DNA of 64,000 nt, taken from contig UZAN01039454.1 in assembly GCA_900618425.1 (NCBI GenBank), positions 111,517 to 175,516 of the forward strand, written 5' to 3'. How positions within the stretch are numbered: the first letter of the stretch is position 1; each line of letters starts with the position of its first letter. The notes beneath the pieces were generated by a model. It made no database searches, was not told the origin of the DNA, and worked only from the letters and a program-made list of their open reading frames with translations. Source of the DNA: Echinostoma caproni. Its lineage: Eukaryota; Platyhelminthes; Trematoda; Plagiorchiida; Echinostomatidae. This document shows positions 34 to 60,039 of this stretch, in pieces. Position numbers and translations under genes: made by a program.

Positions 34-976
34 TACAAACATTTGACTGTCGTTGGTCACATAAAGCAGCACAGCAGTGACAATACTGAAGTAGAGCATA
101 TTTTGAACTGGTTCAAAGATATTTTCGGAGATCAATCGGAAATGCCAATGTACTCATCCCCTTGGGAGAATGACATTAATTATTTTTCTATGTGAATCAT
201 TCAAACTTAACACAACTGTCATTCCCTGGTCTCAGGAACCAACCTGCGATTTTCAAGAATTTATTAATAACCTTATGGGTGCTGTAGACAGAATTGACGT
301 TGAATAGGTTGAGGTCATCATGCATGCTCTAAACAAAACCACAAGCGATATTAGTTTACTGAAACAAATTCAAGTTAACAATGACAAACAATCAGGGTTA
401 GTCTTAACATATATCTACTGTCCCGTAGCGGTTTGAATGCATCGCTGATTTGGTCACTGTTGACTGGATGAAACTGCATCCCAACGCATTTATTCCCTTC
501 AAAGACACGACATCATCCAAGAACTTGTCAGAAATATGCTCCAATGTTATTCTCGTTTAACTCTTAATATGTCTCTCCAAGACCTATTGATTTCAGTAAG
601 TTTCTGAAAATTCGTTTGAGTGAACTCGTTCCCAAAGAAATTGCACACTCTTCGTGCCTCATTCTCCGTCCATACCATACAAAGCTTAGTAAAATAATTT
701 TGATTACCGATGCTTCCCTTTTTGTGACTCGTTTGAAAGCGAGATAGTAAACTGGTCATTCGCTTGTTATGCCTTTCTAATAAGGCTAAAGATTTTTCAA
801 AAAAGCATTGAGAAGCTTGGATTGTCTTAATGACACTCACCAAGATTTGCACAGATATTATCTAAGTACACTGCCAAACGGCTTCTGAATATGAAGCTTT
901 GAAGTTGCTACTTGATCAAATCAAGACCCTGCACCATGCGTCTGCTGTAGTGGTTCAGAGATGGAGTATACGTTGA
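34..976 (+). pseudogene. HAUS1-like (augmin subunit 1) gene remnant or exon cluster
   Basis: Three to four short coding-like blocks lie in the order expected for HAUS1, a coiled-coil subunit of the augmin complex that recruits gamma-tubulin to spindle microtubules. Block A (34-192) reads WFKDIFGDQSEMPMY, close to the WLKKIFGD start I recall for vertebrate HAUS1. Block B (308-396) reads VEVIMHALNKTTSDISLLKQ, helical and placed like the VIEDL segment. Block C (429-557) reads DLVTVDWMKLHPNAFIPFKD, where HAUS1 has a segment with SFIPAVNDLTS. Block D (866-973) is a leucine-rich helix (YEALKLLLDQIKTL). B and C are separated by 397-428, a 32-nt stretch beginning GTTAGT and ending CCCGTAG, typical of tiny flatworm introns. 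A TAG lies just before B (305-307), the B/C reading frames differ by one base after splicing, and block D ends at a TGA (974-976). It is therefore either a pseudogene or a gene with sequence errors. The match rests on pattern and order, not on an alignment. Confidence 0.42.
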
Positions 977-24007: not shown

Positions 24008-24284
24008 AGGTCAGCAGACACGAAACATCCAAGATATTTGAGGTGTTGTGACCTTTAAACTTCTAAGTTATTGATTAAGATAGTGAGAACAGATTATCCA
24101 GAAAGAGTTTATGACCCACAGTCAAAGGAAAACAAAAATTCAATGNAGGTTAGCAGACACGAAACATCCAAGATATTTGAAGTGTTGTGACCTTTAAACT
24201 TTTAAGTTATTGATTAAGATAGTGAGAACAGATTATCCAGAAAGAGTTTATGACCCACAGTCAAAGGAAAACAAAAATTCAATG
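24008..24284. repeat. 138-bp direct duplication across a single N (assembly join) inside the LINE
   Basis: 24008-24145 and 24147-24284 differ at only three positions and are separated by one N at 24146. The pattern matches two alleles or unmerged contig ends rather than a biological tandem repeat. Confidence 0.85.
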
Positions 24285-24823: not shown

Positions 24824-25794
24824 NNNNNNNNNNNNNNNNNNNNNNNNNNNNNNNNNNNNNNNNNNNNNNNNNNNNNNNNNNNNNNNNNNNNNNNNNNNNN
24901 NNNNNNNNNNNNNNNNNNNNNNNNNNNNNNNNNNNNNNNNNNNNNNNNNNNNNNNNNNNNNNNNNNNNNNNNNNNNNNNNNNNNNNNNNNNNNNNNNNNN
25001 NNNNNNNNNNNNNNNNNNNNNNNNNNNNNNNNNNNNNNNNNNNNNNNNNNNNNNNNNNNNNNNNNNNNNNNNNNNNNNNNNNNNNNNNNNNNNNNNNNNN
25101 NNNNNNNNNNNNNNNNNNNNNNNNNNNNNNNNNNNNNNNNNNNNNNNNNNNNNNNNNNNNNNNNNNNNNNNNNNNNNNNNNNNNNNNNNNNNNNNNNNNN
25201 NNNNNNNNNNNNNNNNNNNNNNNNNNNNNNNNNNNNNNNNNNNNNNNNNNNNNNNNNNNNNNNNNNNNNNNNNNNNNNNNNNNNNNNNNNNNNNNNNNNN
25301 NNNNNNNNNNNNNNNNNNNNNNNNNNNNNNNNNNNNNNNNNNNNNNNNNNNNNNNNNNNNNNNNNNNNNNNNNNNNNNNNNNNNNNNNNNNNNNNNNNNN
25401 NNNNNNNNNNNNNNNNNNNNNNNNNNNNNNNNNNNNNNNNNNNNNNNNNNNNNNNNNNNNNNNNNNNNNNNNNNNNNNNNNNNNNNNNNNNNNNNNNNNN
25501 NNNNNNNNNNNNNNNNNNNNNNNNNNNNNNNNNNNNNNNNNNNNNNNNNNNNNNNNNNNNNNNNNNNNNNNNNNNNNNNNNNNNNNNNNNNNNNNNNNNN
25601 NNNNNNNNNNNNNNNNNNNNNNNNNNNNNNNNNNNNNNNNNNNNNNNNNNNNNNNNNNNNNNNNNNNNNNNNNNNNNNNNNNNNNNNNNNNNNNNNNNNN
25701 NNNNNNNNNNNNNNNNNNNNNNNNNNNNNNNNNNNNNNNNNNNNNNNNNNNNNNNNNNNNNNNNNNNNNNNNNNNNNNNNNNNNNNNNNNNNNN
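24824..25794. other. Sequence gap (971 Ns)
   Basis: Unknown sequence. It removes the RT N-terminal half of the flanking LINE. Confidence 0.99.
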
Positions 25795-27326: not shown

Positions 27327-28708
27327 CCAAATCCGGCAAATTCACTCGATTCCATTTTTGCCAATACAACTGGGTTTTCGAAACACAAGATCAAAACTGT
27401 AAAGTTCATTAAGTTATCCGCCTGACTATCGTCCCTTGTTATTCTCCTCGACACGTGCTTTACTGCTCTAGGTAACAAAAGCAGGTATGTATTATCCATC
27501 CGTTGAGTTCTGAACAATATATTACATTCGTTTCAAAATACTAGGCGTTGATGTTCTGTGAACTTTGCATAGCTGTATGTAAAATAAATAGTAATGTTAT
27601 NCTGTCTTGTGACGCTCTATCTGATTTGACAATCCCATTAAGTGTGTTTTAAGTATAAATATTTCACTTTTTGAGTTACACTCTGACAAATAGAATCTGC
27701 GGAATTGCATTTTGCACGTTACGTACTTGGTCCCTCAGTGGATTGGATAAAACTAGAGTAAATACCATTTTGTTTTATAAAACTTGTATTCACAAGCAAA
27801 ATAGCACGAGTTAGAGGAATGATTGCTTTCATTTGATCCGCGCAAAATCAAGAATAGTACGCAGGCTTATAAGTGTGCATCGCACACCTCGAATAAATGA
27901 CAACTCGGGAAAAAAAGAGGATTTCGGGGAGCCCACATCATTTAAACATGGGAAAATTCAAATGTTGGAATTCTCGAGTAGCGCTTCAGTGATGTCGTTA
28001 TCGATTTTCCCGGCCAAACTGGCCGAAAACGGCGAAGCTCATACATGTCGTTGGTATTAATAATGTGGTTAAGTTAGGCGAAAATGTTCCATCCACTTTG
28101 CAAAGACTTTCATCACATTATTTACAAAATGGTCTCACCTGTATTATTATCAATCTTCTGTTTATGCCATTTTTCTAGGGAGATGATTTTATAAATAAGG
28201 GAGAGGCAGATAATCACCCGTAACCAAAATGACAATGAATAAAATAACGTACACTCCTAATTACTTGGTGGTTTTCAAACAGTTCAAGTCTGCTGGATTT
28301 TCACCGTGCAAAGCGGAGCGAAGAGTACTAAGTAAGGCGATGAGTAGGGAAGGTGTCAGATTATTTTATTCGCTTGAAGTGTATTCATTTATTGATTACT
28401 TTCAACGAACGTTTGAATACCACGAATATCACGTGTATATAGCAAGTGAAGCATGAAGTGAAAATCTTGGAGGGACTGGACAACATTTTTGACCTGGTTG
28501 TGTCTCATTAGTAGTGCAAATCGATTGATCCGAGTGGGGGTTTCGACTGAGTGCTTCTTGGTTCAGGTAAATGACATAACTTTCAATTATTTCTTTGTCA
28601 ATGCAGTGATGAGATGCAGCGTTCTCCTGTAAGATATATTTCATCCATTCAGCCGTGAAGTGCAGCACGTTTCTCTTGTGTTCACATGATTTTCGACCGC
28701 CGATATTA

Positions 28709-51870: not shown

Positions 51871-54800
51871 AGCTGATGTAATAGACTTCGAGAAAACCAC
51901 CACCTGAGTGACATTTCGCTCACTAAATCGTTCAAGAAACTGGCCAATCCCAACTACTTAGAAGTTTACATTCGCGTCTATGCACCAAAACCATCGGATC
52001 ATGCGTCCATTTTATCGGGGCTCGCTTCTCTTGCCCAGATGATCCAGATCAGTCACAGATGCGTTCGCTCAGTTTTGTCTTAGGCTTACTCCCATGGAAA
52101 ACAGTGAGTACCGACCAAAACTCACTCAAAAATACTTTTGCTCGTTCGTCGAAAAATCCATTTATTCGGAATGTACCGGTGTTGTGACATTTTTAACTAT
52201 AGGAACAGCTCACACTGTCCACATTGTTACATATTTTTAATGTCCACCTGGTTCAATCTGCGCGTGAACGCAAATTTTCCCGCGTTTTCTTCACAGACAA
52301 ATTTTTATGGCAGTCGTTCTGATTAAAAGTTCGTCCAAATAACACTGGTTATTTGAGCTTACACGCTGGACACGTTGGGAGCTGAGTGCAGGTTTTTAAT
52401 CCAATCAATGCACCACTGTTCGATCTGCTTCAAAGGCTTACTTTATGGCTCTGTCGACTAGCTCAAACCGTTTGAGCGGTTAGTTAAAATATCAGTTGGG
52501 AACCTGTGCTTGATGAAGTCATCGTATTTGAAGAAAAACAACTGCTTGGTGTCGCATGGTGACGTTCATTTTGTCGGCCATTCTGCAAGTGCGTCCATGA
52601 GTGCCGGTTTATGTACCGTGGTAACAACCCTCGGTTACAAAATAGACAGCTGTGGTTTCTGCCCTCGACCCAATGGCAATCAGTGTGTTGTTCTGTAACG
52701 GTTCTCCCCGCTCAGTATAGTTCACCTGTGTCAACAGAGCCCACTCACTTCTCACAAGAATAACTCATTGCTGACCGTGTCGCAATCACTTGGCCGATGC
52801 ACACACATGTATACTGATCAGAGTGAGAAACTGTGTGCATGTGTGCTTGCGCACTACAGTTGGGTTCAAACTAGACAGCAATCTACGATAAGCATCAATA
52901 AGTTCTAACCAGTGGCTGCATATGCAGAAGTGAAACTGAAATTTCGATTGGGGTATTTTGCGAAGATGACTGAGTTGAGGGTCCAGAGAGACTGATTCAC
53001 CGGTATACTCTAAGAAAGAGTAGACAATTCGCCAAACCCTTAACTGCTATTTCAATTTTTGTCGGTAGAGAGTTTGGGAGAATGAAGTAGGTTTCAAGTT
53101 CCATCCTCAATTTGGTTGATCGAATCGCATTGCTGAATAAACCCAACCTGGCTGAAACCTCTAAGCAGTGATCTCTAGGTTTTCAATTTTTCCTGCACAA
53201 GGCGCAGTTTCCAATCGAATGTTGAACGTTGTGCTTTTCACTCGTTCTCACGCGCCCCCAGAGTACTAGTGCCAGATGTTCCAACGATTCAGTTTATCAA
53301 GTCGGTATAAATGAGCGTTTCTTACCATTAAAATAAGTCTCTCTGTATTCTTTGGGATTCCCTGTTTGTTGTGCCCGTTTCACAGAATATATAATACGGT
53401 GGCAATGTACACATGGCTTTAGTATTTTGGCCTTTGTGATCCGAGTTACCCATAGATTCATGGACTTGGTCGAATTCGATTAAAAGTCGATGTATTTTTT
53501 GGAAGTTTGATCATATAACCGATGAGGCTCTTCTTTAAATAAAACAACTGCAACCTCTTCATCCAAAGCAAACTACACGCAGTTACTGAATTACACCACT
53601 GACAAAGAGACAGTGTGAAACTTTCAGAAATGTGTTCATGCTGAAAAAGGACGTTTACAGCGAAAAGGTGTCTTCTTATTTCGTCTATGGATTGTGCAAC
53701 GACAGTTTGGTGCTCAATGAATCGGTGCTCAGTTTACGTTATTGTAAGCATATGGTAAATACACAACGCATTACAGAAAGAGTTTCAGACAGAATACAGA
53801 TTGTTATAACGAGAGAGCAAAACATGTTATATTCCTTTTGTTTCCGTCACCTGTGATTGGGAGGAAATGGATTAGATAATTTCAGGGCTCCCTGAATATT
53901 CCGTGATGCTTACATTCCCCGAATACCTACATACAGGCATATACATGTGCTGGCCCATTATGGCACAACCCATGTATGCAGTCACATGCCAACGTTGTTT
54001 CGATACTTGCTTCGTCCAAATCAAATAAAAGAGAGCTAGAAATTGCAGCTGAACGGAAAGTGCATCAAAAAGATCGACGATTAGATGATAACAGATAAGA
54101 AGACTGATGGAAATTAGGCGACACGTTCGCCCATTTATTTACCTGAACACGGTACCTGTGGAAGTTCAGTAAACTAATCAGCTTCACCTAATGGGATACC
54201 ATTCGGAAATCACGAGGTAACCCTCTTACCACAATATTCCATAACTGAACAAACACATTTGACAGTAGTTTCACTCACGAGTAACATCTTGAAAAAATAA
54301 ATACATTTTACATAACCTCATGGAAGAAGGTGATAAATATTAGAGAAATTAGGGAAGTTTAACAAAAATCAAGCTTCATTTCACAGTGCACTGTTCTACA
54401 CTGGCCGATTTTCCAATGTAGATATGATAGCAGTCGATAACAACAAGAGAAAGATTCTAAATCAGGTCGAACCCTTGTGTACCCGAGGTAACACAAATCG
54501 AAATGACAATAGCGGCAGTGGAGAAGGAACCACTAGGATACAGGATGACGTGAACTATGGAACAAGCAAAAGATCATCAACAGACGAAACCGGTAGAATA
54601 AACGAGACTTCGTGAAAGGGAAAATCAACTGAAAGGTAAACACACTGATTTTATTTGCGCGTGTTGCCCAGCCCTGTACTTAAATATTTCACCTGTTGCA
54701 TTTTCAAACTACTTGATTTGCGTAGTTATAAATGTTTACCAAAAATAAAACATCAGTGTTTGAAACACTGGATTTCATTTATCAGTCGTATGAAGACTGA

Positions 54801-56673: not shown

Positions 56674-57665
56674 ATGATAAGCGTAATCAAGGGCACCGCA
56701 ATCCGAAATCTTGAAGTCCTTGTCAAATGTCCGAACTTGCTACAAATATCATCTCTTTCCTACACGTGCTTTTGTCTATCCACAGTATGAATTCATTGGA
56801 CATAACAAACTCATCACAGAGTCACATATAAATAATAAGCATACAACCACTTGATTTGTTGTATACACGCCCATTTACGTCTCCGGCTCAAATGAGCAAG
56901 GCAGGAACAGTCAGCGTTAGGATCACGGAAAAAATCATGAGACCGATGGCGCAGCAGAATTCAGCAGCAGAGCGATCGGTATGGGGGAAGTTGAACCGTT
57001 TAACATGTTTCACCGTCACAGGAAAGCGATTTTGTTACGTAACATACAGAATCGACACTTCGAGATAGACAACGCGTGAGGTAATGTAAAAGCATTATTC
57101 TATCACGTCGCAAATAGCTACATAATGAAACCGTAAACCAGAGTACATCAGAAAGCCACGGTGCTTTTAGTAGATAGTTTGCTTCGTTTTTCTTTATTTG
57201 TCAGAATGATGTCTATACAAACCAGGACTCTTCACATAACTTTAATCTATGGAAACGCATCACCATATCACATTCAAAGATAATTTTATAATCACTGAGA
57301 AGAAGAAAATGGCCCATTCACGATTTTATACATGCGTACAATAAGATGTTCAGACGGATCCATTCGGGGACAAGTTCACTAGAAAACCTCACAAAGCGGG
57401 CGGAACACCTAACACACTTTTGTCGCTTGGGTGAACCGCTATTTGGTATACTGAGCAAGACAGAGCTGCGCCAAAGGTATACTGAAGACAGAATTCGGAG
57501 ATATGTCGGATGCTGTTACAAAAGTAGATAGACAGAAACGTGTATTGATGTAGTACTTAAACTGTACTCAATCTGTACTCCAACATACTACTCGAAATTG
57601 GAACCAGTAATTACAAGTGGAACACATCCTGACGTGAATACGTGGGATTATTGATACATGGATTC
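56674..57665. other. No recognisable gene
   Basis: Short unassigned frames at 56856-57068 and 57346-57531. Confidence 0.4.
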
Positions 57666-57710
57666 GCACTGCTGATGAGACCCATCCAGGTCGAAACAGC
57701 TTTCTAGTGC
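57666..57710 (+). ncRNA. Hammerhead ribozyme (type I-like)
   Basis: All conserved parts are present in order. Stem I 5' strand GCACTG (57666-57671). Core CTGATGA (57672-57678). Stem II GACC (57679-57682) and GGTC (57689-57692) around the loop CATCCA. Core GAAA (57693-57696). Then a short CAGCTTTC and stem I 3' strand TAGTGC (57705-57710), which pairs fully with GCACTG allowing one G-U. The predicted cleavage site is after C57704, with U at 57703 facing the last A of GAAA. Stem III is minimal and its second pair (C97/T102) is mismatched, which may weaken it. Short stem III is typical of hammerheads in retroelements such as schistosome repeats and Penelope-like elements. No host element boundary was identified. 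Confidence 0.75.
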
Positions 57711-60039
57711 TTCATAGCTTTTCAGTTCACGCTTCATTTGCAATATACATGACGAATTCACTTTTCGAGTAGACGCAAATCCTCCATTACTCACATGGGT
57801 AGTTAACTCTTGTTGAATCGGGAATTGACAAGAACCGGGGCGAAGGTAATTACGAAACATTTTACTAAGTCTGATCACATCATTAACTTACTTCAGGCTT
57901 TCCGTCCCCTCTATACGGTCAAGTGTAGGTTATCCNCCCCCCCCCCCCCCCATCCAACCCTTTGCGCCCAGAAACAGTGTGTAACAACACTGGACTTAAG
58001 ATGGGCGTTCGCTAACAATCTGGTGACCTAGCCTCTGTTCATGGAATCGCACTCATTTACCTACCCATCCATTCACCCTTTCTCTTCCACTTTCCACGCA
58101 TACACACTCACAAACATCAATTATCACAAGCCCATCATCTCATTTTAAACGCTGATTCCCTTCACAGATATATGTCAACTATGAAATTGCTAAAGTTCGC
58201 CATTAGACCCAGATGAGTACATGGTGAGCGAAAATCGCCAATATGGCTGCTAGGAAAACCGATGAACGAGGAATCGTCAGAAGTAAGATATCCTAGGTGG
58301 AGGACATCTGCCTGATAATCCCACTGGGTATACCGATGCCAACAGTAAGATCTGTGAATGGATGGTGCACGACACAATGAAAGCGACAATAACCCTTATC
58401 CCACTCGCCGCTGATATTCGTGCATCTCATACAGGAACGTCGAACACCCCCAGGCATCCCGTTCCTAGCGAGTAGCCTGCTGGCGATGGTCAGCACAGCG
58501 GGATGCCACACAATTGGAACATCTTGGGGGTTAGTTAAATAACGACGCTAGGAGAGTTGTCAAGCCCAGCCACTGACAACTCCGAATCCCGCCACTGCAC
58601 GTCACCTCTATAGATGAAACAACAATTTAGGAGACTTTAGTGGTATTTTTTGACACCGAACAAATTATTGTCTCCAGGAAAACGACCTTGGGTGGTTAAC
58701 ATATGGTTAAGCATCTGCCAATGTTCTCGATCAGCATTCCTAACGACGTGCCTCCGAAACATTGATCACACCTAGCTGACGTGAAGCTTCATCATTGTGA
58801 TTACGATTCGATCGCGCTCTCTGTTGACACCAGCTGCCTGGAAGCCAGTTGGATCAAAGCTCGATAAGGGCAACATCCTAAGTTTCCGTAATGTCCAATT
58901 TATTGATCATATTAGTGACCGGAAAGGCTTTATCAGAAGAAGCCAGTCAGGTCTTGGGTTGTACAACTCGTTCGGTTGAAAATGGTCTATGGGCATTGCT
59001 TAGCTCCAAATCCGTGGAGGAAGCATTAGGCCGAAATGCCTAATAGCCAAATAACACTTCAGAGACACCTTTATCCTCGTGTGCACCTAAAACAGGATAC
59101 TATCGTGACAATTACTACTACCACGCAAAATGTGACAGTCTCATTGTTTTGTTATCTCTCCTCATACCACAACCAGTACTTAAAGGAGTGGGTTGTAGAG
59201 TATGCCTGCTGAAAGAAGTAAAACAATTGCCACAACCGTGCATTCTTAGTCTACGATCGTGGTTGCATTCGCATATCTGTATGTAGGGATAAATGCATCA
59301 GTTTAGAGAAACCATAGTGGCTTGGGGGTCGATGTTGAATCCATTGAGTCCCGCATTATCCCGTCGGCCATTTATTGTGAACACCGTTTACATACACGCA
59401 TTCCGCATCACTGTCCCGTTGTTTATCTTCCTGTATTAACCGTGTGTTGTCCATTTCATTCCCCGCCTGATCCGTACCTATCTAATCTCGATGCCGTTTG
59501 CACGTACGCACGCACCGCTAGCACGTCTACGTCCCCAAGATGACCTCTAGGTCGCCGTTCTCATTTGTTTCATCGATCCGTGACCACGATTGACTGACCT
59601 TGATACCTGTCTACACAAACACACGCAGGTCTACCGCATAGTTATTTCACGACAGACCCAAATGACTAACGTTCACACCCACCGCACTTCAGTTGGTCTG
59701 CCTCCCTCTCAATTCAGTTCCAACTGTTGATTATCGCAGATCCATGTGTTACTGTTTGACATCGTTTGGTTTATTCGTTCCAAGGTCACCGTGTTACCCG
59801 CCTGCTTGCCCACAGTCCTTATTTTTTGAATTAGTGGCTTCGCAGATTCCCGAGTCCGTTACACCCGAAGGTGCCACAGATTTTGCACTATTGCCATCTC
59901 GAGTTCGGCTTTGTAAAAACAACTGTTTATTGAAAGATACCGTATTCTGTTTTTTACCCCTCATTACGCGAATCGTTGTGGCCTGTATTTGAAGTTGTAT
60001 TCGTATCCGTATAGCTCGTGTGAGCGTACTGGCTTAAAT
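57711..60039. other. No assigned gene; poly-C run and GC-richer stretches
   Basis: N at 57936, then 15 C at 57937-57951, likely a polymerase or assembly stall. 58020-58150 is pyrimidine-rich. 58160-59060 is GC-richer than average and may be an unrecognised repeat. 59320-59990 is pyrimidine-rich and similar in texture to the tail of the Penelope-like copy at 6.7 kb, but no coding motif is visible. Confidence 0.4.

Follow-up and report, generated by a model that had tools for sequence, protein, structure and literature searches.

A hammerhead relic in the Echinostoma caproni genome and a family of short retroposons probably moved by Penelope-like enzymes

The hammerhead motif and its surroundings

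The stretch of Echinostoma caproni DNA analysed here (64,000 nucleotides of contig UZAN01039454.1, hereafter the window) carries on its plus strand a type I hammerhead ribozyme motif, the parts of which are listed in Table 1 together with the repeat copies described below. The motif is matched by the entire Rfam model RF00163 (Hammerhead_1, model positions 1-45) with 38.5 bits and an E value of 3.6e-6 (cmscan, Rfam 15), the gathering cut-off of this model being 34 bits; it is the sole Rfam family above gathering within the window, and the match was reproduced with identical placement when a 401-bp stretch was scanned alone. An earlier note, made from the letters only, had placed a hammerhead here, had drawn its anatomy base by base, including the mismatch in stem III, and had named a covariance search with the Rfam hammerhead model as a check; the score and the Rfam alignment bear out both the placement and the anatomy. 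The window hammerhead is a true motif.

Compared with the form that prevails in its repeat family (family E, see below), the window hammerhead is changed at 57685 in loop II, at 57702 in stem III and at 57705 in stem I; the change from G to T at 57702 turns a C-G pair of stem III into C-U, that at 57705 turns a G-C pair of stem I into G-U, while CUGAUGA, GAAA and the cleavage base are unchanged. The family form of stem III, ACAGCTGT, is self-complementary, as is its strand ACAGCUGU, and the window copy differs from it. Minimal type I hammerheads with a self-complementary stem III have been reported to act as dimers (PMC7761336, PMC6155905); a dimer of the window copy would hold two stem III mismatches. 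In the lowest-energy fold of 57658-57720 taken alone (z -1.8), the core pairs with the stem III strand and the hammerhead is not formed. To judge from these sequences, self-cleavage of intact family members is likely, and that of the window copy doubtful. The description "well-formed", given in the earlier note, goes somewhat too far for this copy: stem III is damaged at 57702, the fold of the monomer is not that of a hammerhead, and the copy as a whole is 5'-truncated and 12% diverged.

No Pfam domain was found in the three window ORFs scanned. A frame of about 30 codons, read by eye from the ATG within CTGATGA, was set aside because frames this short often arise by chance. Elsewhere in the window, two 139-bp copies, 97% matching, form a tandem repeat at 24008-24284, which is followed by a run of N at 24824-25794.

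Table 1. Positions of the hammerhead parts and family E copies in the window, and subdivision of the family E reference unit (positions prefixed with e)
Feature	Position	Strand	Basis
Type I hammerhead ribozyme motif	57666..57710	+	RF00163, 38.5 bits against a cut-off of 34
Stem I, 6 pairs including one G-U (57671-57705)	57666-57671/57705-57710	+	Rfam alignment, pair table
Core CTGATGA	57672..57678	+	Sequence, Rfam alignment
Stem II GACC/GGTC	57679-57682/57689-57692	+	Rfam alignment
Loop II CATCCA	inside stem II span 57679..57692	+	Rfam alignment
Core GAAA	57693..57696	+	Sequence, Rfam alignment
Stem III ACAG/CTTT, one C-U mismatch	57696-57699/57700-57703	+	Rfam alignment, family comparison
Predicted cleavage site, after C57704	57704..57705	+	Inferred from motif
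Window family E copy, 5'-truncated (e219-358)	57658..57797	+	Genome copies, placement on unit
Tail of window copy, AT-rich (e272-358)	57711..57797	+	Placement on unit
Older family E copy, 81-82% identity, hammerhead decayed (8 of 45 bases differ)	28432..28539	-	
Strongly decayed family E copy, 71-72% identity (13 of 45 hammerhead bases differ)	53098..53188	+	
Family E leader	e1-143		Reference copy
Family E tRNA-like head	e144-219		Reference copy, weak support
Family E hammerhead	e227-271		Reference copy
Family E AT-rich tail, 36% GC	e272-364		Reference copy

Family E, an interspersed repeat

The genome searched comprises 426.5 Mb in 12,689 contigs, and an HSP70-like ORF of 605 aa from it is 100% identical over its whole length to an Echinostoma caproni protein, the best match listed from another fluke being that of Fasciola hepatica with 54%; a bacterial or viral setting was rejected on these grounds. 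A COX1 search of the genome gave no match. A search with positions 57540-57880 returned, besides the window itself, relatives spanning about 57658-57797 (at least 55 matches, the best 40 of 1,324 candidates being scored), with 85-90% identity over the full length and 80-97% in shorter pieces, often adjacent to one another and in opposite orientation. The set L049-L078, comprising 29 loci inspected from this search as well as that of the window, and the ten larger stretches L079-L088, all but one of which lie over places of that set, define family E as a unit of 363-364 bp that is interspersed and also forms partial tandems with that period; the suggestion of the earlier note that the motif might mark an undescribed small repeat is thereby confirmed. 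The reference unit measures 364 bp with 49.2% GC. A coding role of the repeat was rejected, the longest open frame in a tandem dimer being of 106 amino acids. The likeness of the head to a tRNA is weak: one of four heads examined was called as a tRNA by ARAGORN at default settings and all four under relaxed settings, with differing anticodons and overlapping calls on the opposite strand; the Rfam tRNA model found none in 20 loci at gathering, nor in six loci at E 0.1. The head also contains stretches that resemble pol III boxes.

A 39-nt pattern of the family E hammerhead, with up to three mismatches, occurs genome-wide at 1,084 forward and 1,131 reverse sites, 2,215 in all, against none on either strand for the reversed control; this figure counts hammerheads and not inserts, because many inserts contain two or more. 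Rfam hammerheads were found in 20 of 20 loci of the set L050-L069 (26 matches). Within the window, the core-plus-stem-II pattern CTGATGAGNCNNNNNNNGNNCGAAAC with up to two mismatches has a single match, against 0.02 expected from shuffles. A chance assembly without history, in favour of which the mismatch in stem III and the unfavourable fold of the monomer might be adduced, is accordingly a reading with practically no probability left, being ruled out by the Rfam score above cut-off, by the shuffle expectation and by the genome matches set against an empty control, in agreement with the estimate of the earlier note, which had also foreseen the genome-wide search for copies.

The window copy lacks head and leader and differs from the 29-copy majority in 17 columns (12%), the other 29 copies differing by 1.4-10.6%; it is not a recent insert, because it is too diverged. 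To judge from its sequence, 57658-57797 is a relic, a single truncated arm with a damaged stem III. The window holds two further copies (Table 1), both under the Rfam gathering score; detection of the one at 53098-53188 depends on the scoring, since it was missed by one of the similarity searches.

Arms, outer ends and target-site duplications

Besides the window, 22 of the 29 loci hold two arms placed head to head, with the minus arm on the left and the plus arm on the right, and the other seven are of single orientation; tail-to-tail inserts were not found among the 29 loci. A plus fragment of 73% identity lies about 350 bp to the left of the minus arm of L077, and L088, which is outside the 29, is a minus-plus-minus-plus array that includes one plus-to-minus junction. 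In double-arm inserts one outer end is usually about 30 bp shorter than the other: in 17 of the 22, one arm ends at e354-367 and the other at e308-334. A similar pattern is seen in L072, but its short end abuts an N; both outer ends are long in L051, L055 and L068, and an outer end of L054 coincides with a run of N. Because the 29 loci were chosen by similarity reaching e358, the choice itself largely accounts for each locus having a long arm.

A second sample was therefore of a different kind: ten loci picked by hammerhead match alone, blind to the tail, and taken in list order from an exact-match list (about 100 of the 2,215 sites listed), C429, at the edge of a contig, being passed over and two C451 sites being treated as one. 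Head-to-head inserts are found in seven of the ten and tail-to-tail inserts in none; in five of the seven double-arm inserts one end lies no earlier than e360 and the other within e301-342 (319/360, 362/301, 362/336, 363/342 and 334/beyond 364), the remaining two having outer ends at 353/365 and 360/143, and the single arms of the other three loci stop at e318, e334 and e335. Downstream of 59 family E hammerheads, similarity ends, in an ungapped measure, at 45-49 nt in 7, at 55-64 nt in 11, at 80-104 nt in 34 and elsewhere in 7. Pairs lying within 400 bp among the matches listed (C451, C520 and C2048) are minus then plus in three of three cases. The arms of L054, L072 and L073 continue through e364 into e1, which requires a tandem or circular RNA template, or tandem DNA; if the head is the promoter, copies bearing the leader cannot stem from a monomer started there. 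Such arms fit processing of the retrozyme type, circles and tandem transcripts not being separated by them.

Duplications of the target site were sought in all 22 two-armed inserts of the first sample except L054 and L068, hence in 20. Strings of 11-12 bp are common to both flanks in 11 of the 20, the other nine sharing 4-8 bp, and the longest string shared in 380 mismatched flank pairs used as control is of 9 bp; the flank comparison takes in up to six bases within the called ends, so that the real duplications may be shorter. In all 11 inserts with duplications of this length, the outer ends fall at e359-367 in one arm and at e308-334 in the other. The 11 shared strings contain 80% A+T, against 61% in the window, a figure to which letters of the element may contribute in part. 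Among the ten loci of the second sample, the flanks have 14 bp in common in L103, 10 bp in L107 and 4-7 bp in the others; overall, no duplication above chance accompanies nine of the 20 inserts of the first sample and eight of the ten of the second. Since duplications surround double-arm inserts, many head-to-head pairs are the product of one insertion event.

A second hammerhead family and covariation

A genome search with the RF00163 profile gave 74 places, all above cut-off, as the best 74 of 66,429 candidates scored. The 43 of these that were inspected (L001-L048, five having been fetched twice) all belong to another family, family A, with a head and a tail unlike those of family E and with GUCC/GGAC in stem II; family A fits the Rfam model better than family E, with up to 60.6 bits. 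The order minus then plus is found in 20 of the 43 distinct places and plus then minus in none, in cuts that are mostly of 1 kb and may miss an arm; tail lengths are less clear than in family E. One of these places, L022, contains at 791-894 a hairpin-like stretch of 104 bp with a weak likeness to a miRNA family on both strands, below cut-off; it may be a small element with inverted repeats.

When 41 distinct family E hammerheads, 37 distinct family A hammerheads and that of the window are aligned, 92.1% of cells are paired, against 88.2% in shuffles and 15-39% when the pairing is slid. At pair 15-26 of stem II, all 41 family E hammerheads have A-U and all 37 of family A have U-A. Cells changed on both sides number 40, against 19.9 in shuffles, and 37 of the 40 come from this pair; there is no excess either of pairs showing double-sided change (4 against 3.3; 208 of 500 shuffles) or of further pair types (16 against 15.4; 212 of 500 shuffles). 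The covariation consists of one compensatory difference separating the two families, and changes within each family mostly break pairs, as expected of decay after insertion.

Penelope-like elements in the genome

Genes for the reverse transcriptase and the GIY-YIG endonuclease of Penelope-like elements (PLEs) are present in the E. caproni genome. A GIY-YIG profile search gave at least 31 matches, the best 150 of 188 candidates being scored; six of the 31 listed places were examined, with the 3' flanks of four, and the domain scan covered L089, L090 and L094. RVT_1 (50 bits) and GIY-YIG (30.3) occur in two open pieces in L090; in L094, GIY-YIG scores 24.1, above cut-off, and a partial RVT_1 20.8, below it; GIY-YIG is also present in L089. 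Most relatives of L094 have PF00078 and PF26215; among those with a name, the closest, at 39%, is from Trichobilharzia regenti.

In the six PLE places and the four 3' flanks the family E tail was not found, and the units of families E and A have short weak matches at most (best E 0.63 for family E and 0.007 for family A, the latter within an AT repeat); no Rfam hammerhead was found near the examined places at E 1, and no PLE gene was seen accompanying the family E repeat. Downstream of three PLE ORFs, a similar stretch, ACTTGAHAAAGRCMTTCCAAGARGGTCGAAA, recurs at about 255-290 of L095, 250-286 of L096 and 155-190 of L098 (reverse complement); by eye it resembles a decayed hammerhead, Rfam being silent at E 1. 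L096 also holds two tRNA-like sequences, at 634-715 (-) and 763-844 (+), with Rfam tRNA scores of 46.1 and 48.8 bits, arranged head to head as a near-palindrome and perhaps representing another short two-armed retroposon.

Published PLE inserts are described as adjacent inverted pLTRs, mostly head to head, and as partial tandems, with a 31-bp tail that is optional on one of two inverted pLTRs; duplications measure 8-10 bp in the examples quoted and are lacking in some inserts, and the inversions have been attributed to self-priming on an antisense template (PMC3846280). The purified PLE protein has been reported to cut and extend both strands, to prefer AT-rich DNA and to begin reverse transcription inside the RNA, hammerhead cleavage being dispensable for insertion in vitro and RNA-seq reads being absent at the cleavage site (PMC11167929). 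The inserts of family E display, with exceptions, the anatomy of PLE inserts, namely head-to-head arms, partial tandems, a short tail on one arm and target-site duplications. By analogy, this footprint shows most of the published features of PLE insertion and suggests the action of Penelope enzymes. The idea, advanced in the earlier note, that the motif might belong to a Penelope terminal region is thus sustained as regards the anatomy of the inserts; it finds no counterpart in gene content or in sequence common to the PLE places examined.

Origin of the inserts

Read from its sequence, the window copy is probably the relic of a member of family E, a non-autonomous short retroposon of E. caproni with a hammerhead and a tRNA-like head, moved by PLE enzymes; family E itself is probably best regarded as a retroposon of the Smα or retrozyme kind mobilised in the same way. 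A tandem or circular family E RNA would be made and cut by the hammerhead into units of 364 nt, cleavage being probably most efficient in a dimer held by the self-complementary stem III. The PLE enzyme would then cut both strands of an AT-rich target, and reverse transcription would be primed from both target strands, starting within the tail at a few preferred sites; the two cDNAs, 5'-truncated at varying points, would finally be joined head to head.

Other origins of the same inserts can be envisaged. PLE enzymes might move family E, with both arms of an insert made by self-priming on a single antisense template, the explanation proposed for PLE head-to-head inserts with palindromic junctions in Adineta (PMC3846280). 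The overlap of a few bases seen at several inverted junctions of family E agrees with this; at many others the overlap is missing or replaced by a few extra bases, and the two arms of an insert are often unlike in sequence detail and in outer end, which is better accommodated by two priming events; self-priming is considered rather unlikely. Less credit still is given to the possibility that family E is a SINE of the usual type, mobilised by a LINE, its inversions being products of twin priming. The tRNA-like head, the truncations on the 5' side and the LINE-like reverse transcriptase frames recognised by eye in the fetched stretches speak for such an origin. LINE twin priming leaves an internal point of the element at the outside of the inverted arm; in family E the outside of this arm, too, lies close to the element's 3' end, and twin priming is for this reason disfavoured.

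It may also be supposed that recombination is the main means by which family E spreads, in the manner of satellite-like tandem DNA, its inverted copies being rearranged arrays or products of assembly, a view compatible with the partial tandems, with their period of 363-364 bp and with the N letters found where the inverted arms of L072 and L073 meet. The inverted junctions of most listed loci are free of N, and duplications of 10-14 bp flank whole double-arm inserts; this origin therefore seems very improbable.

Returning to mobilisation by PLE enzymes with priming from both target strands, a more general proposition can be formulated, to which we incline with only slightly more belief than disbelief: that flatworm hammerhead retroposons, comprising Smα-like SINEs and metazoan retrozymes, owe their mobility to Penelope-like enzymes. 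These would act by two-sided target-primed reverse transcription, cutting both strands of the target and priming from each on RNA of the same kind, so that 3' ends offset by about 30 bp in the element lie outermost in two arms joined head to head between duplications of 10-14 bp. Two outermost 3' ends with this offset, and duplications, are what the published anatomy and biochemistry of PLEs predict (PMC3846280, PMC11167929). The footprint of family E makes the identity of the enzyme that moves animal hammerhead retroposons testable by sequence and in vitro; if the proposition is true, the proposed partnership between PLEs and retrozymes would gain a genomic footprint readable in any assembly.

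Comparison with known hammerhead elements

Literature on family E, including hammerheads of Echinostoma, was not found among titles and the openings of abstracts, nor was a two-ended insertion footprint found described for hammerhead retroposons, few subscription papers being covered in either case. The closest described relatives are Smα and Sjα of schistosomes, SINE-like elements bearing a hammerhead (PMC2770079), the activity of which has been reported for Smα (PMC8490949). Family E resembles them in being short, non-autonomous and present in high copy number, in its type I hammerhead and, weakly, in its tRNA-like part, and in its trematode host; it differs in that the host is an echinostomatid and, as far as published descriptions allow a judgement, in head and tail. 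Head-to-head inserts, seen in family E, are not mentioned for Smα and Sjα in the accessible parts of the two papers (PMC2770079, PMC8490949).

Animal retrozymes, known also from platyhelminths, are described as small tandem repeats with type I hammerheads and circular RNA, for which PLEs have been named a strong candidate helper (PMC7229834), the argument being drawn from shared hammerheads, the habit of forming tandems and co-occurrence (PMC7229834, PMC7761336). With metazoan retrozymes family E shares the type I hammerhead and a tandem unit that is a few hundred bp in length and has no long ORF; unlike them, it occurs mostly as dispersed double-arm inserts and not as long arrays, and its unit has 49% GC, against the value below 45% given for retrozymes (PMC7229834).

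From PLEs, family E is distinguished by having no reverse transcriptase or GIY-YIG ORF in the unit; a sequence match was not found in the six PLE places examined of the 31 listed. Its hammerhead is similar to those of PLE pLTRs in the short stem III, in the action as a dimer that can be inferred for it and in its occurrence in partial tandems and inverted arms, and its inserts share with the pLTRs an optional segment of about 30 bp at one end and AT-rich targets (PMC7761336, PMC11167929, PMC6155905). Family E is new as a family, the kind of element being known already, and with it the range of Smα-type hammerhead retroposons would widen from schistosomes to include an echinostomatid fluke.
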